Shown here in pieces: positions 22,617 through 58,448 of a stretch of 64,000 nt of DNA (positions are counted from its first letter, which is position 1; the number at the start of each line of letters is the position of its first letter). The stretch is taken from assembly GCF_000003815.2 (NCBI RefSeq), contig NC_049990.1, positions 15,845,548 to 15,909,547 of the forward strand, read 5' to 3'. Position numbers and translations under genes: made by a program. Origin of the DNA: Branchiostoma floridae. Lineage: Eukaryota > Chordata > Leptocardii > Amphioxiformes > Branchiostomatidae. Under the pieces are notes generated by a model, which saw nothing but the letters and a program-made list of their open reading frames with translations, was not told where the DNA came from and did not search any database.

Positions 22617-25600
22617 ATGTGTGCGTGGACGAACGCTAATCATTATGACTTGAAGCCTGGGAAGTCAACGCAGCCACTTCGATCCGCACTCTATACCGCC
22701 ATGTTACTTCTTCCAACCGCTATCAGCATGGTCAACATCCTCCTATCACTCGTAGTTATTCCAGCGACGGGCGAGAATTTCAATCTAGCCGTTTACTCGC
22801 CATCGCCCTGCAACGACGTCCTATATTCGAATTCAAACGAAGAGGCGGTTAGGATGGCGGTTGAAACGGTAAATAACGACACTACGTTGTGCCCGGGGCT
22901 AAACGTGTCGTACAGTATGTACTACACGGGGTGCTCTTCCGCTGAAGGGCTGGCAACGTTTGTGGCAACGGCGGGAGGTGGTGAACTTCACCCGCCGGCA
23001 GATGCGTTCATCGGGCCCGTCTCTACCGAAGTCTGCACGCCGTCAGCTCAACTAGCCACAGCCTGGAACAAAGCCATCTTGTCGTGGGGATGCTTAAAGA
23101 GTGCGCTCAACCAACTACCAACATTCAATAGACTGGTTCCTTCGTCGAGCAGAGTTGCAAAGGCCGTAGCCGAGACTATGAAGTTCTACTCCTGGGTGCA
23201 TGCAGCTCTGGTTATCAGCATGAAGCCAATGTGGAAAGAACTGGGAGACTATATCTACAAAGCACTGAAAGAAGCTGGTCTCAAAGTGGACGCGCAACTT
23301 TCGGTAAGCAAGGAGACCACAAGCACAGAGATGGCGGAAAAGCTGGTGAGCATCTCGGATATTCCTGACATAAAGGGTAAGAAATAATGATTTCATATAG
23401 TCATTTTGTTAGCATGGTGAAATGTATTGCTTTTGTTTTCGTATAGAGGTACTGCTACCATCTTTGTGCAATGTTTTCCTCATTTCACCTCAGTATTTGA
23501 CCGTTCATATAGCCACATTGTTTGCATGGTGAACTGTGTTGCTTTTGTTTTCGTATAGAGGTACTGCTACCATCTTTTGCAATCTTTTCCTTATTTCATC
23601 TCAGTATTTGACCGTTGGTGTACCACAGACGGTCTAACAATCAAAGTTCTTCGCCCTTCTTGGTTCTCTATTCGCCTTGATATTTTATACTTATTGTCCT
23701 GACGGTCAATATTATTCTTCCGTCCTTTCCATTGCCTTTCCCTCGTTTTTCGTTCCTTACATGATAGTTTTGGCTAGTCTCGATGGCCGTAATTCCCCCT
23801 CACATGTACGAGAAAGTATGACCATGATGCCGACATAGAAATGGCAGAGTTCTCCCCTTCCCGTCAGGGTCATACGTCCTCGTAAATTTAGAGCTCGCAG
23901 TCTCGTCGTCCGATCGATTTTCGCAACATGTAACGGGGGTATAACACGTGGCCGGACCACTTCAGGTTTCCTTTTTAACTGTGGTTATACCCCTGTCACC
24001 ATATCCACGACCTTTGGGGGAATCGATGGAAGATCGGCCATATTTAAGATCGACAGAGGGTTGCGCGTATTTTTCACCTGAAAACCGTCTCTGTCACATA
24101 AAATCCATACTTTGTATCTTGTACAATTGTTGTGCAATAAAGTTATTATTATAATCGAGGCTCGGGCGATTGTCGCAGAATCGTCGTCCGATCGATCTTC
24201 GCAAAATGTGACAGTGGTATTAGGAGATTTAGTTCCACATTCACAGAAGCAATGATTACCCATATGCCGATAGTGTTGGTGTACATCTGATCCCTTGCTT
24301 TGGTAAAAAAAACACATGACAAGGGACTTCTTTTCCACGTCATCGTTGAACTGATTAGTCTCGGTAGACCGCTGAAATTCGTTTGAAAGCTGATGCCTTT
24401 TTAATGCCCGAACCTCTGAAGTGGCGCAGAGGGCCTTATTAAATGTCTGCTGACTATATATTCATAGGCCGGCGGTCAGGAACGTGTTGCCGAAAACATA
24501 TACAGTAGATGCCAGTTAATTGCACAACGAATAATCGCACACTTCTGTTAATTGCACGAGATCCCCAAATCCCTTGGGGGTGCAGTCCAGCTTTTTAAGC
24601 GGCTTCTACTGTATTTAAAAGTGTGTGAAACACCTTACGAAAGTCCATAAGTACACAGAAGGGTAAGCAATGAAATATCAAAAGGCCTCTCCAAGGAATA
24701 AATAGAAATGTACGTCATTTCTCAGTAAATTCGTCATTGCAGAAAATAATTTCATCAGGTTGGTAGAATATAGGATATACGAGGATTTTTGTACACAATC
24801 AGGATGTACAAATCAAAGTAAGTACAAGAATTGTACAAGTACAAGGTTGTGTACAAGAATTTTTCCTAAATTCGTCAGTTATATAAAAAAATGACCAGAA
24901 AAGAATACAGTGGTAGAATTGAGAAGAAGTGATGTCCATTATTTTTTTCGAACACACCAAACGTCGTTCAACATGTAAGGGTCAATCAAGGAAGGTACGA
25001 TGGTGTAGAAATGTATCATAGATTTATACCTTCTACCTTGATAACATACGCGTACGAGTGTTACAAACTGGGTGATATTCTGGGTTCCACAGAGTCCTTT
25101 CAAAGCACTTCTAGTGTGACGCTATCGAAAATTAGGATACAATATATACAATAACATCAAATATCTTCGCTTTGATCCAATGAATACCAGTACAATATGT
25201 GGAAAATTTGAGCCTTAAACGTAAATAGCAAATCAGACGCATTTAGAGGAATTATACAGTTACTTGATACCAAGTAATTTTCTGCATCTAATCATCTTCG
25301 GCTAAGAATAGAAAAGAGTTGTAAGCTCAATACTTATGAATAGGGACCCTTGATGAATATGGTACCCATAGCTCGCCTGTGTACGTGACTTTTCATTCTG
25401 TAGTTCTGTATTCTGTTCACATCTTCAGACAAGCCGGAATAGCTTAACTACATAATGAGTGGGTATATCAGATCCTTCTGCTGAATTTAGACGCTGATCA
25501 ACGGGTCGAGGAGTAAAAGTGGGACAGAGCACTACAGGCGACAAACTTGTAGCAGTAGATATCATGGAATCAGCAAGGACAAGGAAAGTACAAAAAATTC

Positions 25601-28600
25601 GTTATTGACGTACGTGCCCCCATGAAACAGTCTATGTTTAAAAGAACCAATGAGAGGAAATAGAGCACTACACGTGACAAGCCTGAAGCAGCCTGTGCCA
25701 TCTTACAGCCACAAAATCAGAACCAAGGACAGGATAAAAAGTTCGTTATTGATGTATTTGCCCCCACGAAATAGTCTGTGTTTAAATGAACGAATGGGAG
25801 AAAAGGAAATAAAGCACTACACGTGACAAACTTGTAGCAGTGGATACCATGATTCATCCACCAAATCAGAACCAAGGACAGGACAATGAGTTCGTTATTG
25901 ACGAATGTGCCCCCACAATAGGTCTGTGTTTGAATTGACCGATAAGTGAAAAGAAAATAAAGCACTACACGTGACAAACTTGTAGCTGTGAATACCATGT
26001 CACAAAATCAGAGCTAAGAACAGGATAAAAAGTTCATTATTGACGTATTTGCCCTCACACGAAGTCTGTGTTTGAATGGATTAATGAGAGACACGGAAAT
26101 AGAGCACTACACGTGACAAACTTGTAGCCGGTGCGATGTCATGATACGGCCACAGAATCAGCACCAAGGACAGAACAATAAGTTCGTTATTGACGTATTT
26201 GCCCCCATGAAACGGTCTGTGTTCAAATGAACCACAGAGAAAAATGGAAATAAAGCTCCACACTTGAAAACCTTGTAGCAGCAGATGTTATGATACAGAC
26301 ACAAAATCAGAACCAATGACAGGACAAAAAAGTTCGTTATTGACGTATTTGCCCCCACAAAACGGTCTGTGTTTGAATGGACCAATGAGTGAAAATGATA
26401 TAATAATATATGACAAATTTGTGGCAGAAGATGCTATGATACAGCTGCTAAGCAGAAAAAGGGACAGGACAAAAATGCCGTTATTGACATATTTGACTTC
26501 ACGAGACAATCTGTTTTTGAATGGACCTATTAGTGAAAAATCATATATGGCAAATGTGTATCATTCAATGATATGATACAGCACAAAATCAGACCTAGTG
26601 ACAGGACAAAAAAGGTTGTTACTGACATATTTACTCTCCCGAAATGGTTTTTGTCTGAATTGACCGATGAGGAGTGAAACGTAGTTGAGGATCATATATG
26701 ACAAACTGACTTGTGGCAGTTAAAACATCAGCACCAAAATCAGCACCACGAACAGGACGTAAACTTCGTTATTGCCATCACGAAACTTCACGAAACAATC
26801 TTTGTTTGAAATGGACCAATGAAAAGACAACAGAGGAACATTATGTTCCTCTGTTCTCTTTTCATAACAAACAACAAACATATTATGTGGCAGCAGATTT
26901 TTATGAAATGTACATAATCAGTACCAAGGACAGGGCGTAATGTTCGTTATTGTCATCACGAAAAAAATCTGTGTTTGAATGGACGAATCAAAAGGGAGTA
27001 GAGGAACACACACAACAAATTGTAGCAGCACTGTCTAATTAGCATCTATAATGGGGCAAAACGGGCTATTGGAATATCTTTACATTTACGTTTTTACCTA
27101 TTGTTTCTGTTATGTTTCCAGTTATAATTCTATGCACAGGGTCGCACATGTCCAACAGTCTGGAGGAATTCATGGTCCTGAACGCCTCGCACAACCTGGG
27201 ATTTTCCTCGGGCCGATACGCCTTCATCTCCGTAGACCCTCTACTGAACTCCGCGGTGGCGAGGCGATTCCACGCCGTCACCGCCTCAACCACAAACCAC
27301 ACGGAACTCTACCAATCTTTGCTGACACTAGCGCCGAGTCCACCTCCTCAAACACTGCAAGAAACAACTGGAGAAAGTTGGATAGAAACCAGGAGAATGA
27401 TACAAGAAGAAGGCATTAAACAGCACGAGGTAAGATTTCCTTTTCCTTCTAGATCTCTTCCTTCTGCTATTGGAAGCGTTGTTGGCGCTACTTCACCTTT
27501 ATCCGCGGGGTAACCAATATCCGTTGTTCTTATACTCAATGTATCTAGGACTGTTAAGTCGACGGACGGTGGTTTAAACTGCAATATTTTGAAGTTGCAG
27601 TTTAAAACCACCGTCCGTCGACTTGATATCACTAAAAATCATGTTTTACAAACAACGGATATAGGTTACCCCTTGGATAAAGGTGAACTAACGCCATAAC
27701 AAAATGTAATAGCGCTTCAGTCGTAAAAGATCATGTTTCACGTACAACGGATATAGGTAACCCCTCGGATAAAGGTGAACAAGCGCCACAACACAATGTA
27801 ATAGCGCTTCAGTTGTAAAAGATCCTTTTTTTACATACAACGGATATAGGTAACCCCTCGTTAAGCCGAACTAACGCTATAGTACAATGTCGTTGTACAT
27901 CAGCTTGTAACGCTTATCAAGTGTTTGCCTCTCTTGTTACGTAATGATCTTACTTAATTTATCATCGACCTCGAAGTGATTGCTAAGAGCATATTAGTTC
28001 GGATTGCTAAGAGTAAGAGCCTTTTTCAGAATTTAGGATTAACTGCTAATTACACCGTCATATAATGTAGTACGCACCTATTCTTCTTCAAGAGGAAACT
28101 TGCTGTCGCACGTTAATTAATAGCGGGCCAAAATTTATTTGAGTACATATTTTGACCCTCTCGTTACTGGTCTATGATATTAATATTCAAAAATTACGTA
28201 CGATTTTGCCGCAATTATTAACTACCTTCACGTAGTACAGGGTAAGGTTAAAAAAATGCTAAAAACATCTGTCACTAATAATAGAAACATAAAAACCGTC
28301 GCATGATAGTAATAGAAATGCGTCAGTGAATGTTTAGTGATGATTTACATCTAGCGACCAGATCGGCTTGTCACAGGTAGATGAATTTAAACAGCTGATG
28401 GCTATGCTACACCTAGTGACATTTCAAGAAATTTACGTTAGTAACGTTACCGAAAAACTATTAGGAACTGTTGACCCTCACCTTTGAAAAGACATTTTCC
28501 AATTTTTTTCCACTGTTTTATCTGCTTAATTGCGTTACTGCGTAGCAAATATATGACTGACAGAATGGAAACATGACAACGAACCCCAACGTCAGTCCAC

Positions 28601-50173: not shown

Positions 50174-53100
50174 TCAGAAGAACAGCCCCCTCATGCGCCG
50201 CCCCATGCCTGGTCTGTCGTACAGAAGGCTGAACTTGTTGATGAACTGGTTGATGGTGTTGCAGCCTTTAGTGATGGCGCCCAGATAGGCCATCAGGCTC
50301 ACATCATTACATTGCTGCAACAAGAAAGAAAAAGAAGATTAAAGTAAGCCCTTTTTGAGGCTGCAAAGGTTGTTAGTTGTTATCAACTGTGCCCTGTGTA
50401 CGGTATTGGACGGCGGAACTCAATCCTCTCCTTCTGTGCCTTTTACCTCCCCAACTTAAGCCATTTTTACACCTGCATGGAGTGAGGAAATTTGTGTAGA
50501 AAAAGTGCCTTTCCAAAGGACAAAATATTTAGCTAGGAATGTCAGGAATTCAGCCACTGTCCTCTCAATTTCACATCTGCTGGCCTAACCACTGGCCATT
50601 GACACCACGCAACAAGACATCCATGGCATGCAAATGTAAACCAAAAACTTAAATAGTCATTTCTGCCTAGAAGTTGACTGAAACAAAAGAGCTATCTGTG
50701 GGTTGTTGGCCGCCTAGCTGTGACAGTGGCACATAGGTCAGCAAGTTCTGTATCTGTATCTGTATCTATATAGCCGGCATAACTGCTGTTCGGCGTAACA
50801 CACCATCTTCGCAGGCACGCGACGTGGCAGCAGCTGGTTATACATGTGTATTACACTAAACAACCCATCACAAGTAAGCTTTGCACATCAAAGTTTCCTT
50901 TGTGTTTCTACAGCAGGGTATATTTTACAGGGAAGGGTTGCTATATATTGCCCTTCCCCTTAACGTTTTTGATGCACCTCTTTGAACACAGGATCCTCAT
51001 TTTACATCCTTTCCGAAAGATGCCCTGACCCAGGAGTTGAAGCAAACTCACCCACTTATTAGAACTAGGAGCTCAACTGAGACTGCTACCAGTTGAGCTA
51101 CAGGGACATCCCCATCTGTTCTACCTCACATATTTAGTTCTATTTCATTATTGTTCTACATTTCTTTCTCAGCTCCCTCTTTTCCACTTTAAAAACCAAG
51201 ACAAACGTTGCTCCTTACATTAAAGAAGTCTCCCGTGAAGTTGGGTGTGTCCAGTACAGGTAGTCGGTGACACAGGCTGTACGCTTCACGCATGATCTCG
51301 TGGTTACGTGGTACCGCTCCTGTTAAAAAAAACACATTTTGCAACTTAGGAGTCAGAACATCATAACAGCAATCATTTCTCTTGTTACAAACAAATGCAG
51401 TCATTAAATGGAATGCTTTTCTTCATTAACAGGTTGCAAGTGTGTATATACACATTACAGATGAGCAGTATCTTGGCAATGAGCTTTCATGTAAATCAAG
51501 GTAGAAACCTGAAAAAAAAGGTACTCTAAGAAATCTATTCATACTGTGTATAATCAGAGCACTGCAGGATAGATAAGCCTTCTTCCCAGAGGTATTGCCA
51601 AAAAAATTAACAAGCACATTTTCCAAGCTACTCTACCATACCTTTCAAAAGTCAATTTTAAGAGCCAAAAGACATTTTGGGGTTACTGCAAATGCAGAAA
51701 TGTTCGCAGTGGATTAATGTTCACGTTTTTTGTGGTGACAACTTTACCCCAAACTTAAAACCACTGCAAACATTTTTCTATTATGGTATTAGACTGCAGT
51801 CTATGGTGTTACCGCGAACTTAAATCCACCGCGAAAAGTCCCTTTTCCCGCTACTGCGAAATCAAATCCCCGCGAACTTAAATGCATTTACAGTATATCA
51901 TAAGTTTCGTTGTTTGACTTTGTACATACGTTTTACCATGGTGATTTCATCTAATATCAAGACAAAAGTGTACGTATGACAGTTGTTTGATGTGTTGAGC
52001 ACAAGTTCGAGGTCAAGTTCGAAGAAGCCGTACCTCTTTGGACATCTTTGATGTACTCCAAGATGATCTTGACTCGACAGTGTAACATCTTAATGGCATT
52101 GTGCTGGGCAACTAGGTGTTCAGCAACTATGGAGGGTGAGAAAGTGTTTTAGAGTAAGGTTAGGCAAAAAACTATTACAGTGCTTCCAGCTACGGTTCTG
52201 AAAAAAAAATTAGGGTGGCATGTTTTTTTTTTTTTAGATTTGAGCTGAGGGGATCCAAGATACACATTTAACTAAAATGTAAAACTGAAATGCAGCAGGC
52301 ACTGGTATTTTCAACATCATATCTTAATCATGAAGATATACATTGCATAAGAAATATCATCATCAATAATAACCTGTACAAAGGAGCACAATGTTTACTA
52401 CACATTCAGTTACTCATTTCCAAAGTGACAGAGAATCCTGTGCTCCTATTGGATGAATTTTCAAAGTGAGTACAGCAAGAATCCTGAGCTCCTATTGGAT
52501 GAATTTTCATGGTGGTTAAGAACCCTGAGCTCCTATTGGATGAATTTTCATAATGATTAAGAATCCTAAGCTTCTATTGGTGACTCTATGAAAGAAAATA
52601 AGTTGGAAGAGAATGGCCACAGAATCTTCGGAAGGAGGTTGCAGGCTGGCTTCTATTCATAGACTATATTTATTGTACCTATGCTACAGTATATTTTGTG
52701 TTCCTCAGGATTCTATCCTGGGACCACTCTCATCCCTCCACCTTACCTGTTGAGCTATCGGAGGTGTCAGCGTTGGACATCCTGGCCACATGGTCCACCC
52801 CTATCCTATGTTGTGTTCCTCAAGGCTCTATCCTGGGACCACTTTCATCCCTCCACCTTACCTGTTGAGCTATCGGAGGTGTCAGCGTTGGACATCCTGG
52901 CCACATGGTCCACCCCTATCCTATGTTGTGTTCCTCAAGGCTCTATCCTGGGACCACTTTCATCCCTCCACCTTACCTGTTGAGCTATCGGAGGTGTCAG
53001 CGTTGGACATCCTGGCCACATGGTCCACCCCTATCCTATGTTGTGTTCCTCAAGGCTCTATCCTGGGACCACTTTCATCCCTCCACCTTACCTGTTGAGC

Positions 53101-55433
53101 TATCGGAGGTGTCAGCGTTGGACATCCTGGCCACATGGTCCACCCCTATCCTATGTTGTGTTCCTCAAGGCTCTATCCTGGGACCACTTTCATCCCTCCA
53201 CCTTACCTGTTGAGCTATCGGAGGTGTCAGCGTTGGACATCCTGGCCACATGGTCCACCCCTATCCTATGTTGTGTTCCTCAAGGCTCTATCCTGGGACC
53301 ACTTTCATCCCTCCACCTTACCTGTTGAGCTATCGGAGGTGTCAGCGTTGGACATCCTGGCCACATGGTCCACCCCTATCCTATGTTGTGTTCCTCAAGG
53401 CTCTATCCTGGGACCACTTTCATCCCTCCACCTTACCTGTTGAGCTATCGGAGGTGTCAGCGTTGGACATCCTGGCCACATGGTCCAACCCTATCCGCTC
53501 AGCCTCCTCCATATACATATATATATGTTGCGTTCCTCAAGGCACTATCCTGGGACCACTTTCATCCCTGCACCCTTACCTGTTGAGCTATCGGAGGTGT
53601 CAGCGTTGGACATCCTGGCCACATGGTCCACCCCTATCCGCTCAGCCTCCTCCGTAGCCAGCGTGTACTGCAGCTCCACAAACAACATGGTCGCCTCGCC
53701 TTTCACCAGGTCGATCACTGACTCGTATATACTGACTGGGAGCTGCAATGGTGGTTACAAAACAATGTTGTTGTTGTTGTTTACCTTGTAGAGCCTAGTA
53801 GCATATAGGTCAGCAAATTTCCTGGCTGTTTTTGTAGCAGTGTACATTTTTACAGGGACGGGTTGCAGGTTGCTTTTCATAGTAACTTCAAATTAGCGAC
53901 ACAAGTAGACCACAAACATTTTCATTATCACTTAGGATATCCTACAATAGCTTCCTAAAGGATATTTGCAACACATGTGATATGTAAAGAAGAGATGATG
54001 AATTAATAGAGATTATGCTAATAAGAGATTATTTGTATAGTATTAGAATAGTAATGAGACTTCACTTCTACATTCCTTTCTGAATACTCGTGCTTGCGTA
54101 TCCTTGCCCACAAAGACTTTGGAAAAAGATGGTGATTGTAGCAAGTTAAAGACGTGTCATTTCTTTGGTTGAACCTTTGCTTACTTACGAGAAGCTCAAA
54201 TCTGCCTGCAGGCCGCTTTTCATCATGGATGACTTGAGGGCAGAGGTAAGGGACACTACAAAATATGCACAGAATGTTTGCAGAACTCATACAGTTTATT
54301 TGAATGTACCAAAAGAAAATGAGTCATGGTTACTTACGTCTGTGTGTCGAGCCATGGGGTTGAGTTTCAGCAGGATGGGGCTTTCATTTATCTCACAAAC
54401 CTGGAGAAAAGCAAACAAGTTACTGAGAATCTGTTGCTAAGGATGTTGTTGTGAGTCCAATTGGTGTCTGTAAGCCTAATTTGCACACAACTACAGAAGA
54501 ATTGAGAATGCTGTCATCTGAAACTTTCAGGGTAGTCAGATCTTGAACATGTTTCAGAACACAACACACTTGTTTTTTTGCATGTATTGTTTTTTAGTTG
54601 TATTGCATACAGTACCTGGTAAAGTGCTTCATGGCACAACAAACTAAGTTTGCATTTGCATTAAAAAGTACAAGCTGCTTATCTGGACAGATATAGAAGA
54701 AGAACCTTATTGCACGACAATTGTACATGCCTTTGGTACAAAGTATGGCAACAGCTATTAGTAGTATTACATAAAGTACAAAATAGAGGTATAAGATAAA
54801 GCTTAACATAAAGTGATCCAATTCTCTTTCTGATAAGTGTGGTGGGTTGTTTTTTACATGCTCGAGATAAAACTCTCCTCAAAAAGAAGACCTCCACTGA
54901 AATGTCATTGTCACTAACAGCAATGAGTTACTCATCTTTATCTGAGTGAAGTCAGGAAATTCTTGTGATGCAAGGGCACAATGCCAACAGGACATGTCAG
55001 GAGATTCAAACCCAGGACCTCTAGAACAGACTTTTAGCTAGGATTGTATCATAGGGTGTCCAAATTTCTTCCTGTTCAGCGAGCGCTGCAGGCACAAGTA
55101 TTGTACGGGGTCTGGGGACATCCTCACTCAGAAAATTTTAAAACTTAGAACTCTCTGAAACACCATTTCCCACATCTTGAGGTGCAAATTTGGGGGAATG
55201 AAGCAAATTTTCTGTCAGACAGGCCACATGTGACCTGTAGCATCCCTGGTCAATCAGAATTTCATGCTTGTCAGAGGATCTGCTCCCCAGTGTAAGGGCA
55301 TACAATTTCAGTTATTTTTTTTAACAGGGCGTACAATGTATGCCTGTACGCCTGCCTGGCTAAAAGCCTGCTCTAGAATACAGTACTATTATGTCATGGC
55401 TACTTTGACTTATGCTGCCCCTCCATACAAACA

Positions 55434-55480
<47 letters not shown>

Positions 55481-58448
55481 ACCTGTCTATGCACTTTCCT
55501 ATCAGCTTCAGAAGGATCTCCCCCCGTGGTGTACCAGCCGAGAAAGTCCAGCTCTTTAAACACCTGGCGAACTGGAAAAGGAATATTTCCATCATTATCC
55601 AACACTTGAATAAATTTCCCCATTGGAACAACTAAAAAGTCAATGCTTTGGTAATCTCTACATGGTAAGTTGAATCTAAAAATCAACTTTGGTAACAACT
55701 TACATTTTGAAATGATTTAAAAGGGAGTACTAGAATTGAGAAAATGTGAAAGAAACAAATCTAGAGTTTAAGACTTTTGTACAAAGTATAGCGAGAATTC
55801 TATTTTACCAAATGGCAATCACTAGGGGTGGGTACCGGTACAGCGTACAGGTACAAACCGTTTTTTCTTATTGGACTGGTCTGGTAAAAACGGACCTGAC
55901 AAAAAATTGGTGAGCCAGATGTTGGACCTATTGGAAAATGAACAGATCACTTGTCTGGCCTTCACACATTTTGGCCCTTACCGGACGAAGAAAATAACGA
56001 GAGTAGTAGAAGAGTAGAGTTTATTGTAATTTCTATCATTTTAGAGTCAGTCATACAGTGGCAGCGAACTAGTTAGCCTAAGCCCTTGTAGGATATTCAA
56101 AATGCCAGTATGAGTTGCATTCTCTACCTAACAGATTTCTTTGTAGTGAAATGAACCATTGTTGTGAGTATCATCCATTCAAAAGTTTTTACATACTGAA
56201 TCAGATCCAGGCTCAGGTCCAGACCTGGACCTGATCTGGACATGGACCTGAATTTTCTGTACCAGTAACCACCCCTAGCCACTGCAAGTTCAATTTCTGA
56301 CGGTGGGGTTTTGTGTTACTCACATTGCTCCTCCTTGGTGCTAAAGTAGTCCCTGTCGATGATGATGTCCCCATCGATGGTGTCAAACATCAGCTCAAAG
56401 GAGTTACAGATCTCAAGGTTCCTTCCTGACTGCTTCCCCAGCAAGGCTCCCAGAACTAAACAGAAAGCAAAGTTCAAGTCACTTAAACTGCAAAGAAAGT
56501 ACATTTGTACATGCAGTGACCCTTTTTTTTACACAGAAAACTGTTAACTGTGCTAGTGGCTGGGCTGGGGGGAAGAAATTACTAAGAATAGTGTATGGGA
56601 GAGCTTCGGGTATAAGTTTCAGCTCTCAGTTTCAGCCCTCAGTCCTAGGCATATAAAAGAACCCAACAAGAAGAGTAGGGGTGACCTGTTGACGAGCCTG
56701 CCTTTGAAAGGGAGTCGAAAGTGAGGCCGTAGTGTACCATTAGCCATCGAAAAAGTGTCAAGCTTTGAAATTGTCTCAACCATTATGCTTTGAGTTCAAC
56801 CAAAAACAGAGAGGGGGGGGGGGAGAGAGAGAGAAAAGAAGATAATAATAAGAGAGGGAGAGAGATAGAGGGGAAGAGAGAATGACAGAGAAAGAGGAGA
56901 TGGGAGAAAGAGGGAGAGAATGAGAGGAGGAATGAGAGCTAGAGAGTGGGAGAGGATGAGTGAGCAAGAGTGAGAAAGAGTTAAGAGAAACAGGGAGTAA
57001 GAGAGAGAAAGAGGGAGTAAGAGAAAGAGAAAGAGGGAGTAAGAGAAAGAGAGAGGGAGTAAGAGAGAGAACGAAAGAGGGAGTAAGAGAAAGAGAAAGA
57101 GGGAGTAAGAGAAAGAGAGAGAGGGAGTAAGAGAGAGAAAGAAAGAGGGAGTAAGAGAAAGAGAAAGAGGGAGTAAGAGGGAGAAAGAGGGAGTAAGAGA
57201 GAGAGAGAGAGCGAGAAAGAGGGAGAAAGAGAAGGGGAGAAAGAAAGAGTCACCTTGTACAGCCTTGCCCTCCTGAGCCCGGATACGGGTCCAGTGTTCA
57301 GAAACGTTCATGATGACCAGGGGGTGCAACTGGACTGTTACACTCCCCGCTGTTCCAGGGGCTGCCATCACCCCCCTGGATGTACCTGTGGACAGATTAG
57401 GAAATCACATAATTAGTGTATGCCAAAGAAACTCTACCTGCTATCTGTCATGTGTGTTTCAGTTGTACAGATATAGCTCAACATAACACAACATTGTTGT
57501 ATAGTCCATTGGCAAGTCACACTGCCTCTGACCAAGACATCATGAGTTCGAATCCCGGCTACTGTAATTGTAAATGCATCTAAGTCTGTGGGGATCTAAT
57601 TTTGTGGTAGCGGGAAAAAGGACTTGTTGTGGTGGTTTTAAGTTTGCGGTAGCAACATGCACTATAGTCTCTTACTGCTATGGAAAAATTTTTGCGGTGG
57701 TCTTAAATTCGCGTTGAAGTGGCCACCACAAAAACTGCGAACATTAAACCACCGCAAAAAGTTTCTGCATTTACAGTATTGTCGTTCACCCAACATGCAC
57801 ACTACTTGAAAGCCGTGGTCCACTGTTCATTGTGTTTGTGAAGTTGAAAAGAACTAGGACAGAATTTCTATGAATATGATACATAACAATGAACCTGTAA
57901 TTGTGTGCATAGAGTCTGTTTTCTCTGTCATGACCACTGGAAGAACAGCTCTTCAGTAAGCTTAACACGATCGATATCACTTTCACTTGAAATGTTTTTT
58001 ACTCATTTTTTATAACATATTTTCGCTGCATCTGATAATTTGTATGTAGGTACCAGGCAGCTGGACACTTGGCAAGTTAGCTCATGATAGTTCACATAAA
58101 AATCGACCTCCTTTTTTATGTTCAGCCTTCCTGACGCTACCTTCGTTAGGTTAGGACTTATAAAAGCCCCTTGTTTATATGACTGAAAAGACGTCACAGT
58201 TATGATGATCATAGATTTTAGAAATTTTAAGACAGTCTACACTACCCCCCTCCCCCTGTTTCTATCCCATCCACAGGAAAGATTCCGACCGCAGGCCTCA
58301 CACATTGGCTATTTTACAGTGTAACAAAATCTAAGAATTCAAGTGTAAGCCACACAAGTCTATTTTACATGCGTTTTGTCGATAAAGAGTAGATTTTTCA
58401 GGTACCTTCTTCAGCTCCCGCTGTCGCGCCTTGCTCGTCGACTTCCAT
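50174..58448 (-). CDS. COPS6: COP9 signalosome subunit 6 (CSN6), nine exons
   Basis: CSN6 is a non-catalytic MPN-domain subunit of the COP9 signalosome. It pairs with CSN5, the enzyme that removes NEDD8 from cullins. Exons on the minus strand: 58448-58406, 57385-57254, 56455-56324, 55571-55483, 54400-54338, 53742-53580, 52126-52034, 51319-51219, 50314-50174. They total 957 nt, 318 codons plus stop, all in phase; human CSN6 is 327 residues. Recognised blocks are [125 protein letters not shown] and the C-terminal GRRMRGLFF. The JAMM metal residues are absent, as in all CSN6. The start ATG at 58448 gives MEVDEQGA, like the MEVD start of vertebrate CSN6. Convergent with the cyclase gene, divergent from the acidic-protein gene. 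The introns contain repeats, and exon 6 is partly duplicated. Confidence 0.96.
50440..50610 (-). repeat. SINE fragment
   Basis: Body words TTTTACACCTGCATGGAGTG and AAAGTGCCTTTCCAAAGGAC match the SINE at 41454-41782, followed by a decayed tRNA-like part. It lies in COPS6 intron 8. Confidence 0.6.
51684..51895. mobile_element. ~212-bp MITE with TACTGYAAATGCA ends (family I), copy 1
   Basis: TACTGCAAATGCAGAAATG and AAATGCATTTACAGTA bound it, with inner inverted CCGCGAA/TTCGCRG arms. It lies in COPS6 intron 7; a second copy, in inverted orientation, is in intron 1. Confidence 0.85.
52690..53579. repeat. 115-bp tandem array made from the COPS6 exon 6 / intron 6 boundary
   Basis: Seven extra copies of a unit lie just downstream (minus-strand sense) of real exon 6. 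Each contains, in minus-strand sense, the last ~58 bases of exon 6 ([18 protein letters not shown]), its 5' splice site ACAG|GTAAGG, and about 50 bases of intron. Splice-site copies sit at 52746/52747, 52861/62, 52976/77, 53091/92, 53206/07, 53321/22 and 53436/37; the functional one is at 53579/53580. Spacing is exactly 115, and the inner copies look identical by eye. The copy next to the real exon reaches further into the exon (to about 53511), followed by a short ATATAT stretch. On the plus strand the intron part reads [11 protein letters not shown]. Confidence 0.95.
54188..54231 (-). other. Candidate 44-nt cryptic or poison exon in COPS6 intron 5
   Basis: In minus-strand sense the segment has a pyrimidine-rich acceptor (tcccttacctctgccctcaag) and a consensus donor (CTTCTC|gtaagtaag). 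Its length is not divisible by 3. Exons 5 and 6 flank it and join in phase 0 without it. Including it shifts exon 6 so that a TGA follows within about ten codons. This is inference from splice signals only; no family similarity is visible. Confidence 0.35.
54930..55050 (-). repeat. SINE fragment in COPS6 intron 4
   Basis: TATCTGAGTGAAGTCAGGAA, GCAAGGGCACAATG and GAGATTCAAACCCAGGACCT align with the SINE at 41454-41782. Confidence 0.6.
55436..55480. repeat. (AC)n microsatellite abutting the COPS6 exon 4 donor
   Basis: An AC run of about 43 bases lies within 5 bases of the exon 4 5' splice site (CAG|gtcagtgtgtg on the minus strand), so the intron begins as a GU repeat in RNA. Confidence 0.97.
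55823..56277. mobile_element. ~455-bp family G inverted-repeat element, intact copy, COPS6 intron 3
   Basis: Ends TAGGGGTGGGTACCGGTACA and TGTACCAGTAACCACCCCTA are inverted. Inside are GGACCTGA/TCAGGTCC runs shared with 8424-8853 and 19693-21021. Target duplication not clear. Confidence 0.85.
56809..57250. repeat. Purine-rich GAGA/GAGGGAGTAA tandem repeat in COPS6 intron 2
   Basis: About 440 bases of AGAGA and AGAGGGAGTAAGAGAA units on the plus strand; in the COPS6 transcript it is a long pyrimidine tract starting 4 bases after exon 2. Confidence 0.97.
57490..57560 (+). repeat. tRNA-like SINE head
   Basis: TAGTCCATTGGCAAGTC (A-box-like) and GAGTTCGAATCCCGGC (B-box-like) at tRNA spacing, with no matching acceptor stem. 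Confidence 0.5.
57560..57778. mobile_element. MITE (family I), copy 2, in COPS6 intron 1
   Basis: TACTGTAATTGTAAATGCATC and TTCTGCATTTACAGTA bound it; the GCGGGAAAAAGGACTT word matches the reverse complement of 51684-51895. Confidence 0.85.

Follow-up and report, generated by a model that had tools for sequence, protein, structure and literature searches.

A tandem array across an exon-intron border of the amphioxus COPS6 gene resembles the previously described mirages

The COPS6 gene and the array in its sixth intron

The gene that hosts the array lies on the minus strand of the window, the whole 64-kb stretch of Branchiostoma floridae DNA that we analysed. Eight joined coding exons, running from 57368 to 50174, encode a protein of 298 aa, and the match of residues 3-298 to COP9 signalosome subunit 6 (PDB 6r6h_F, E = 6.8e-146) bears out the name COPS6 given to the gene in a first-pass annotation. 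The first modelled exon is open upstream towards a possible acceptor, and a further COPS6 exon probably lies upstream of it, which fits the label 'exon 6' used in that annotation. Exon 6 (53580..53742, minus strand, 163 nt), as defined by the exon model, the joined translation and the protein match, is the source of the repeat through its 3' end. It is followed in the exon model by intron 6 (52127..53579, minus strand, 1453 nt), which contains the array, and by exon 7 (52034..52126, minus strand), whose acceptor was scored as pyrimidine-rich (0.88 at −20..−5). Donor scanning and scoring place the real 5' splice site of intron 6, GTAAGG, at 53574..53579 of the minus strand. The coding model, which uses none of the repeated donors (hereafter decoys), gives an intact COPS6 protein.

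Tandem Repeats Finder reports the array as 7.0 copies of a 115-base unit with a 99% match (52692-53496) and, beside it, a 143-base period towards the real end of exon 6. Read in the sense of the gene, each unit consists of the terminal 59 bases of exon 6, followed by the GTAAGG donor and about 50 further intronic bases, that is, 59 exonic and 56 intronic bases across the exon-intron boundary, in seven copies plus the real one. Array mapping thus agrees with the earlier claim that this segment recurs seven more times within intron 6. The real copy, unit 0 (53524..53638, minus strand), comprises the 59 bases at the 3' end of exon 6 and the first intronic bases. Unit 1 (53381..53495, minus strand) has one private exonic change and lacks an AG before its 59-base exonic part; it is followed by five identical 115-base units, units 2-6 (52806..53380, minus strand), and by unit 7 (52691..52805, minus strand), which forms the distal edge, with 6 of its 115 bases changed relative to the core. 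The first intron bases of the donors are 53579 (real), 53436 (unit 1), 53321, 53206, 53091, 52976 and 52861 (units 2-6), and 52746 (unit 7), and the steps between them are 143 bases once and then six times 115 bases. The longer step, from unit 0 to unit 1, includes AT-rich filler sequence and an exonic part of slightly greater length. It had also been claimed that every copy keeps a consensus donor; indeed, CAG/GTAAGG is found at all eight, real and copied. Within the window, all eight occurrences of the donor 9-mer CAGGTAAGG are on the minus strand; the plus strand has none.

Whole-genome DNA searches (513,431,437 bases, 431 contigs) with 343 and 74 bases of the repeat returned the array alone, as 7 and 8 overlapping matches respectively, and no second locus; a search of this kind, which scores only a small number of candidates, overlooks short matches, as the motif pattern search described below demonstrates. 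Other tandem repeats were seen in the window. A second minisatellite lies within COPS6 intron 6 (52416-52580, 41-base unit, 3.9 copies), and a 149-base array of 6.5 copies lies elsewhere (25580-26539). Moreover, an (AC)n run (55427-55478) starts 4 nt into the intron after COPS6 exon E4, and a GA-rich array (56851-57249) starts 4 nt into the intron after exon E2. With the main array included, three of the seven COPS6 donors are at most 5 nt from a tandem array; the permutation P of 0.042 applies to a single gene that was picked post hoc, and the arrays were merged manually, for which reasons we set this proximity aside as evidence.

We also asked what the intronic half of the unit might derive from. 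On the plus strand it reads VPQG(T/S)ILGPL, which we take to be a reverse-transcriptase motif; the stretch occupies 53529..53561 in unit 0, and a variant of it is repeated in the core copies. With up to 2 mismatches the motif pattern was found at 62 places in the genome, 8 of them being the COPS6 array itself, and its reversed control at none. A longer pattern with up to 3 mismatches gave 35 places, a fully degenerate pattern 865 exact places and a second motif 141 exact places, each with a control of 0. About 100 of the 865 places were listed, and we inspected 73 of the first 75 (67 at L046-L112 and 6 at L031-L036, two being left out). By eye, seven of these 73 (L070, L074, L082 and L108-L111) have no reverse-transcriptase context on either side, and at several others it is confined to one side. 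Five of the seven look coincidental, judging by the reading frames opposite the motif: that of L074 is protease-like by eye, those of L108 and L111 contain coiled-coil-like repeats, and those of L109 and L110, for which no frame of 100 aa was listed, were read by hand only. For the second motif, reverse-transcriptase context was present on at least one side at all 20 places inspected. These were chosen among the 33 places at the head of the list; most of the 13 others are neighbours of places that had been inspected before. Among the compared loci, the best non-self match to the core (32/33 bases) is at L028, which is without reverse-transcriptase context, and the best matches to true elements are at L023-L025 (25/27 bases). 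L028 itself has the motif in two exact copies and one weaker copy, about 150 bases apart, at 1344-1677, with no reverse-transcriptase context seen. No Pfam reverse transcriptase was found in the three frames given. The start of the intron may possibly be a LINE remnant antisense to COPS6; since some places with the motif have no reverse-transcriptase context, the motif alone does not prove such an origin.

Differences between the copies and their number

The copies were then compared base by base. Units 2-6 show 0/115 differences in all 10 pairs, and unit 1 departs from them by its single exonic base. The earlier impression that the copies look identical therefore holds for units 2-6, but not for unit 1 or for the distal unit with its six changes. 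Compared with the core, the real unit shows three intronic substitutions, one indel and 0/59 exonic differences. Because units 2-6 contain no private variants, their identity does not discriminate between an assembly effect on the one hand and recent expansion or conversion on the other. According to the former explanation there are fewer true copies, and the identical units 2-6 were made or multiplied by the assembly or by the merging of haplotypes. From the sequence alone, only unit 1, the distal unit and the real unit are supported as separate copies. A chromosome-scale B. floridae assembly is described as combining about tenfold Sanger reads with haplotype merging (PMC7269912), a description that we extend to this window by inference, and one mirage (a tandem repeat across an exon-intron border of an amphioxus gene) is stated in the globin paper to have been aberrantly assembled in the draft genome (PMC3087553). 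However, a single-copy locus does not explain an array with at least three sequence-distinct copies and two different junctions, and the original repeats of the amphioxus PGBD5 gene were reportedly confirmed by re-sequencing (PMC3902484). We consider an assembly effect unlikely. It would concern the copy number, the exact value of which presumably depends on the assembly, and it is compatible with the array being a mirage.

A second question is whether selection, or conversion templated by the true exon, maintains the exonic halves of the decoys. When one indel and the final columns are disregarded, the real and the distal unit differ at 0/59 exonic and 8/54 intronic bases, and this contrast is significant (Fisher P = 0.002). 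It is lost, however, when restricted to about 14 synonymous-equivalent exonic sites (P = 0.19, not significant), and unit 1 does have an exonic change. Moreover, recombination between two haplotypes with a common conserved exon would give the same pattern; such an exchange accounts for the contrast between exonic and intronic bases equally well as selection. Maintenance of the exonic halves appears rather improbable to us.

Altogether, the sequence observation is real and the outline of the earlier reading is correct. We propose that the array began with a tandem duplication across the border of exon 6 and intron 6 of COPS6, and that it then expanded inside the intron by 115-base steps, probably through unequal exchange or replication slippage.

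Donor choice in an intron with eight identical donors

The first-pass annotation had suggested that each unit could act as a 59-nt cassette exon, with 'acaacatag' standing before it. An AG does precede GATAGGGGTGG in 6/7 copies, within this motif, but not in unit 1, where the sequence is ...TGAGCG and reads GATAGGGTTGG. The six candidate acceptors with an AG have pyrimidine fractions of 0.44 at −20..−5 and 0.27 at −15..−5, and that of unit 1, which lacks the AG, has 0.31 at −20..−5, as against 0.62-0.94 and 0.64-0.91 in the same two intervals for the seven real COPS6 acceptors scored. None of the 7 candidates is preceded by a pyrimidine tract, and by this composition test the copies are not each preceded by a usable 3' splice site. 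Furthermore, the reading frame stops after residue 188 (T-G-stop) for each of the seven single cassettes and for cumulative runs from the first cassette up to all seven (13 distinct cases). The weak acceptors and the immediate stops lead us to reject cassette exons as the main working of the array, and the earlier suggestion is correspondingly weak.

Use of the decoy donors is a different matter, as far as the donors themselves are concerned. The duplex energy with the U1 end is −11.5 kcal/mol for each of the eight donors, compared with −4.8 to −7.5 kcal/mol for the six other scored COPS6 donors, which are weaker. A two-unit fold had suggested that RNA structure hides the decoys. This was ruled out by the opening energies, calculated from local folds with five flank sizes, according to which the decoys (2.97-3.40 kcal/mol) are at least as easy to open as the real donor (3.46-6.22 kcal/mol). 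Neither the donor motif nor local folding tells real from decoy; position does. All the decoys are downstream of the real donor, and their use would require exons of 306-996 nt (163 nt plus the extension). Each of the seven alternative donors brings a stop after residue 198 of 298, which falls 33-35 nt into the exon extension (counted by hand). Under the usual junction rule, transcripts with premature stops, whether from decoys or from cassettes, would be targets of decay.

According to these results, we consider it very likely that the array is a donor-side mirage minisatellite in COPS6, in which the outermost donor is used and the decoys are removed with the intron. The spliceosome would most likely take donor 53579, which lies closest to the acceptor of exon 6 and gives the 163-nt exon, and the seven decoys would leave silently with intron 6; occasional use of a decoy would yield a premature-stop transcript, expected to be degraded. 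That the outermost donor is used and the others are spliced out silently is the most likely outcome in view of the published cases and of the cost of the other choices, and the array is probably harmless to COPS6. Against silent decoys stand their identical 9-mer and their equal or easier opening, position being the only feature found to silence them. Moreover, the globin paper states that the splice signals of such repeats could give aberrant transcripts (PMC3087553), and in one PGBD5 gene model the repeats were taken as an exon (PMC3902484).

These points are also those that speak for a regulatory role, in which some COPS6 pre-mRNA uses the decoys and is lost to nonsense-mediated decay, and the length of the array tunes the output. 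Every decoy outcome tried contains a premature stop, and the decoys equal the real donor in the 9-mer and are at least as accessible. However, the decoys all need the longer exons described above, and the published mirages are reported to leave regular splicing undisturbed (PMC3087553, PMC3902484). We regard this copy-number dial as very unlikely. Its extended form, in which serial identical donors act as poison donors that send part of the COPS6 pre-mRNA to decay, and in which a repeat number unstable between animals or tissues sets the output of COP9 signalosome subunit 6, seems to us highly improbable. The eight competing donors of the first-pass annotation are present as motifs, all eight 9-mers being there, but regular splicing is reported to be undisturbed in the published amphioxus cases.

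COPS6 among the amphioxus mirages

Tandem repeats across exon-intron borders were named mirages in the amphioxus globin genes BflGb6 and BflGb9, after the work on Adh3 by Canestro et al. 2002 (PMC3087553). The same architecture is described in Adh3, BflGb6, BflGb9, PGBD5 and TnC, with units of 10 to about 160 bases (PMC3087553, PMC3902484). One BflGb6 haplotype is reported to have 6 units and another 3, and the edges of the BflGb6 cluster are unhomogenised (PMC3087553). In PGBD5, where 60- and 108-base repeats lie at splice sites, the copy number is unequal between two assemblies; TnC is named in the same source (PMC3902484). RT-PCR data for Adh3 and the globins are said to suggest no interference with regular splicing, and the same paper considers that the splice signals of the repeats could act as cryptic sites (PMC3087553).

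The COPS6 array is a further example of these mirages. Its unit spans the exon-intron boundary and its splice signals are kept (8/8 donors); as in the other cases, the repeats run head to tail over the border and many copies keep the AG/GT signals. The homogeneous core with a diverged edge recalls BflGb6, and the duplicated part is the 3' end of the exon, as in BflGb9. What differs is the gene, the total of eight donors, the 115-base unit and the five identical core units. No COPS6 repeat was among the matches listed from the open-licence literature, and a conserved regulatory gene is hereby added to the short list of mirage genes. The locus also offers a clean natural test: eight donors that share the 9-mer and are about equally accessible compete for one acceptor, and the sole difference found between them that might settle the choice is position (first to be transcribed, shortest resulting exon).

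Intron gain may itself proceed by tandem duplication, a case of which is reportedly the potato RdRp gene. In the Rogers model of intron gain, a segment with proto-splice sites is duplicated in tandem (PMC3087553), and in COPS6, too, DNA with splice signals has been duplicated in tandem inside a gene. Unlike in that model, no new intron is evident, and the COPS6 copies sit in an intron which, in the coding model, is spliced out in its entirety. The COPS6 array is a candidate for the state from which an intron could be gained through such a duplication.
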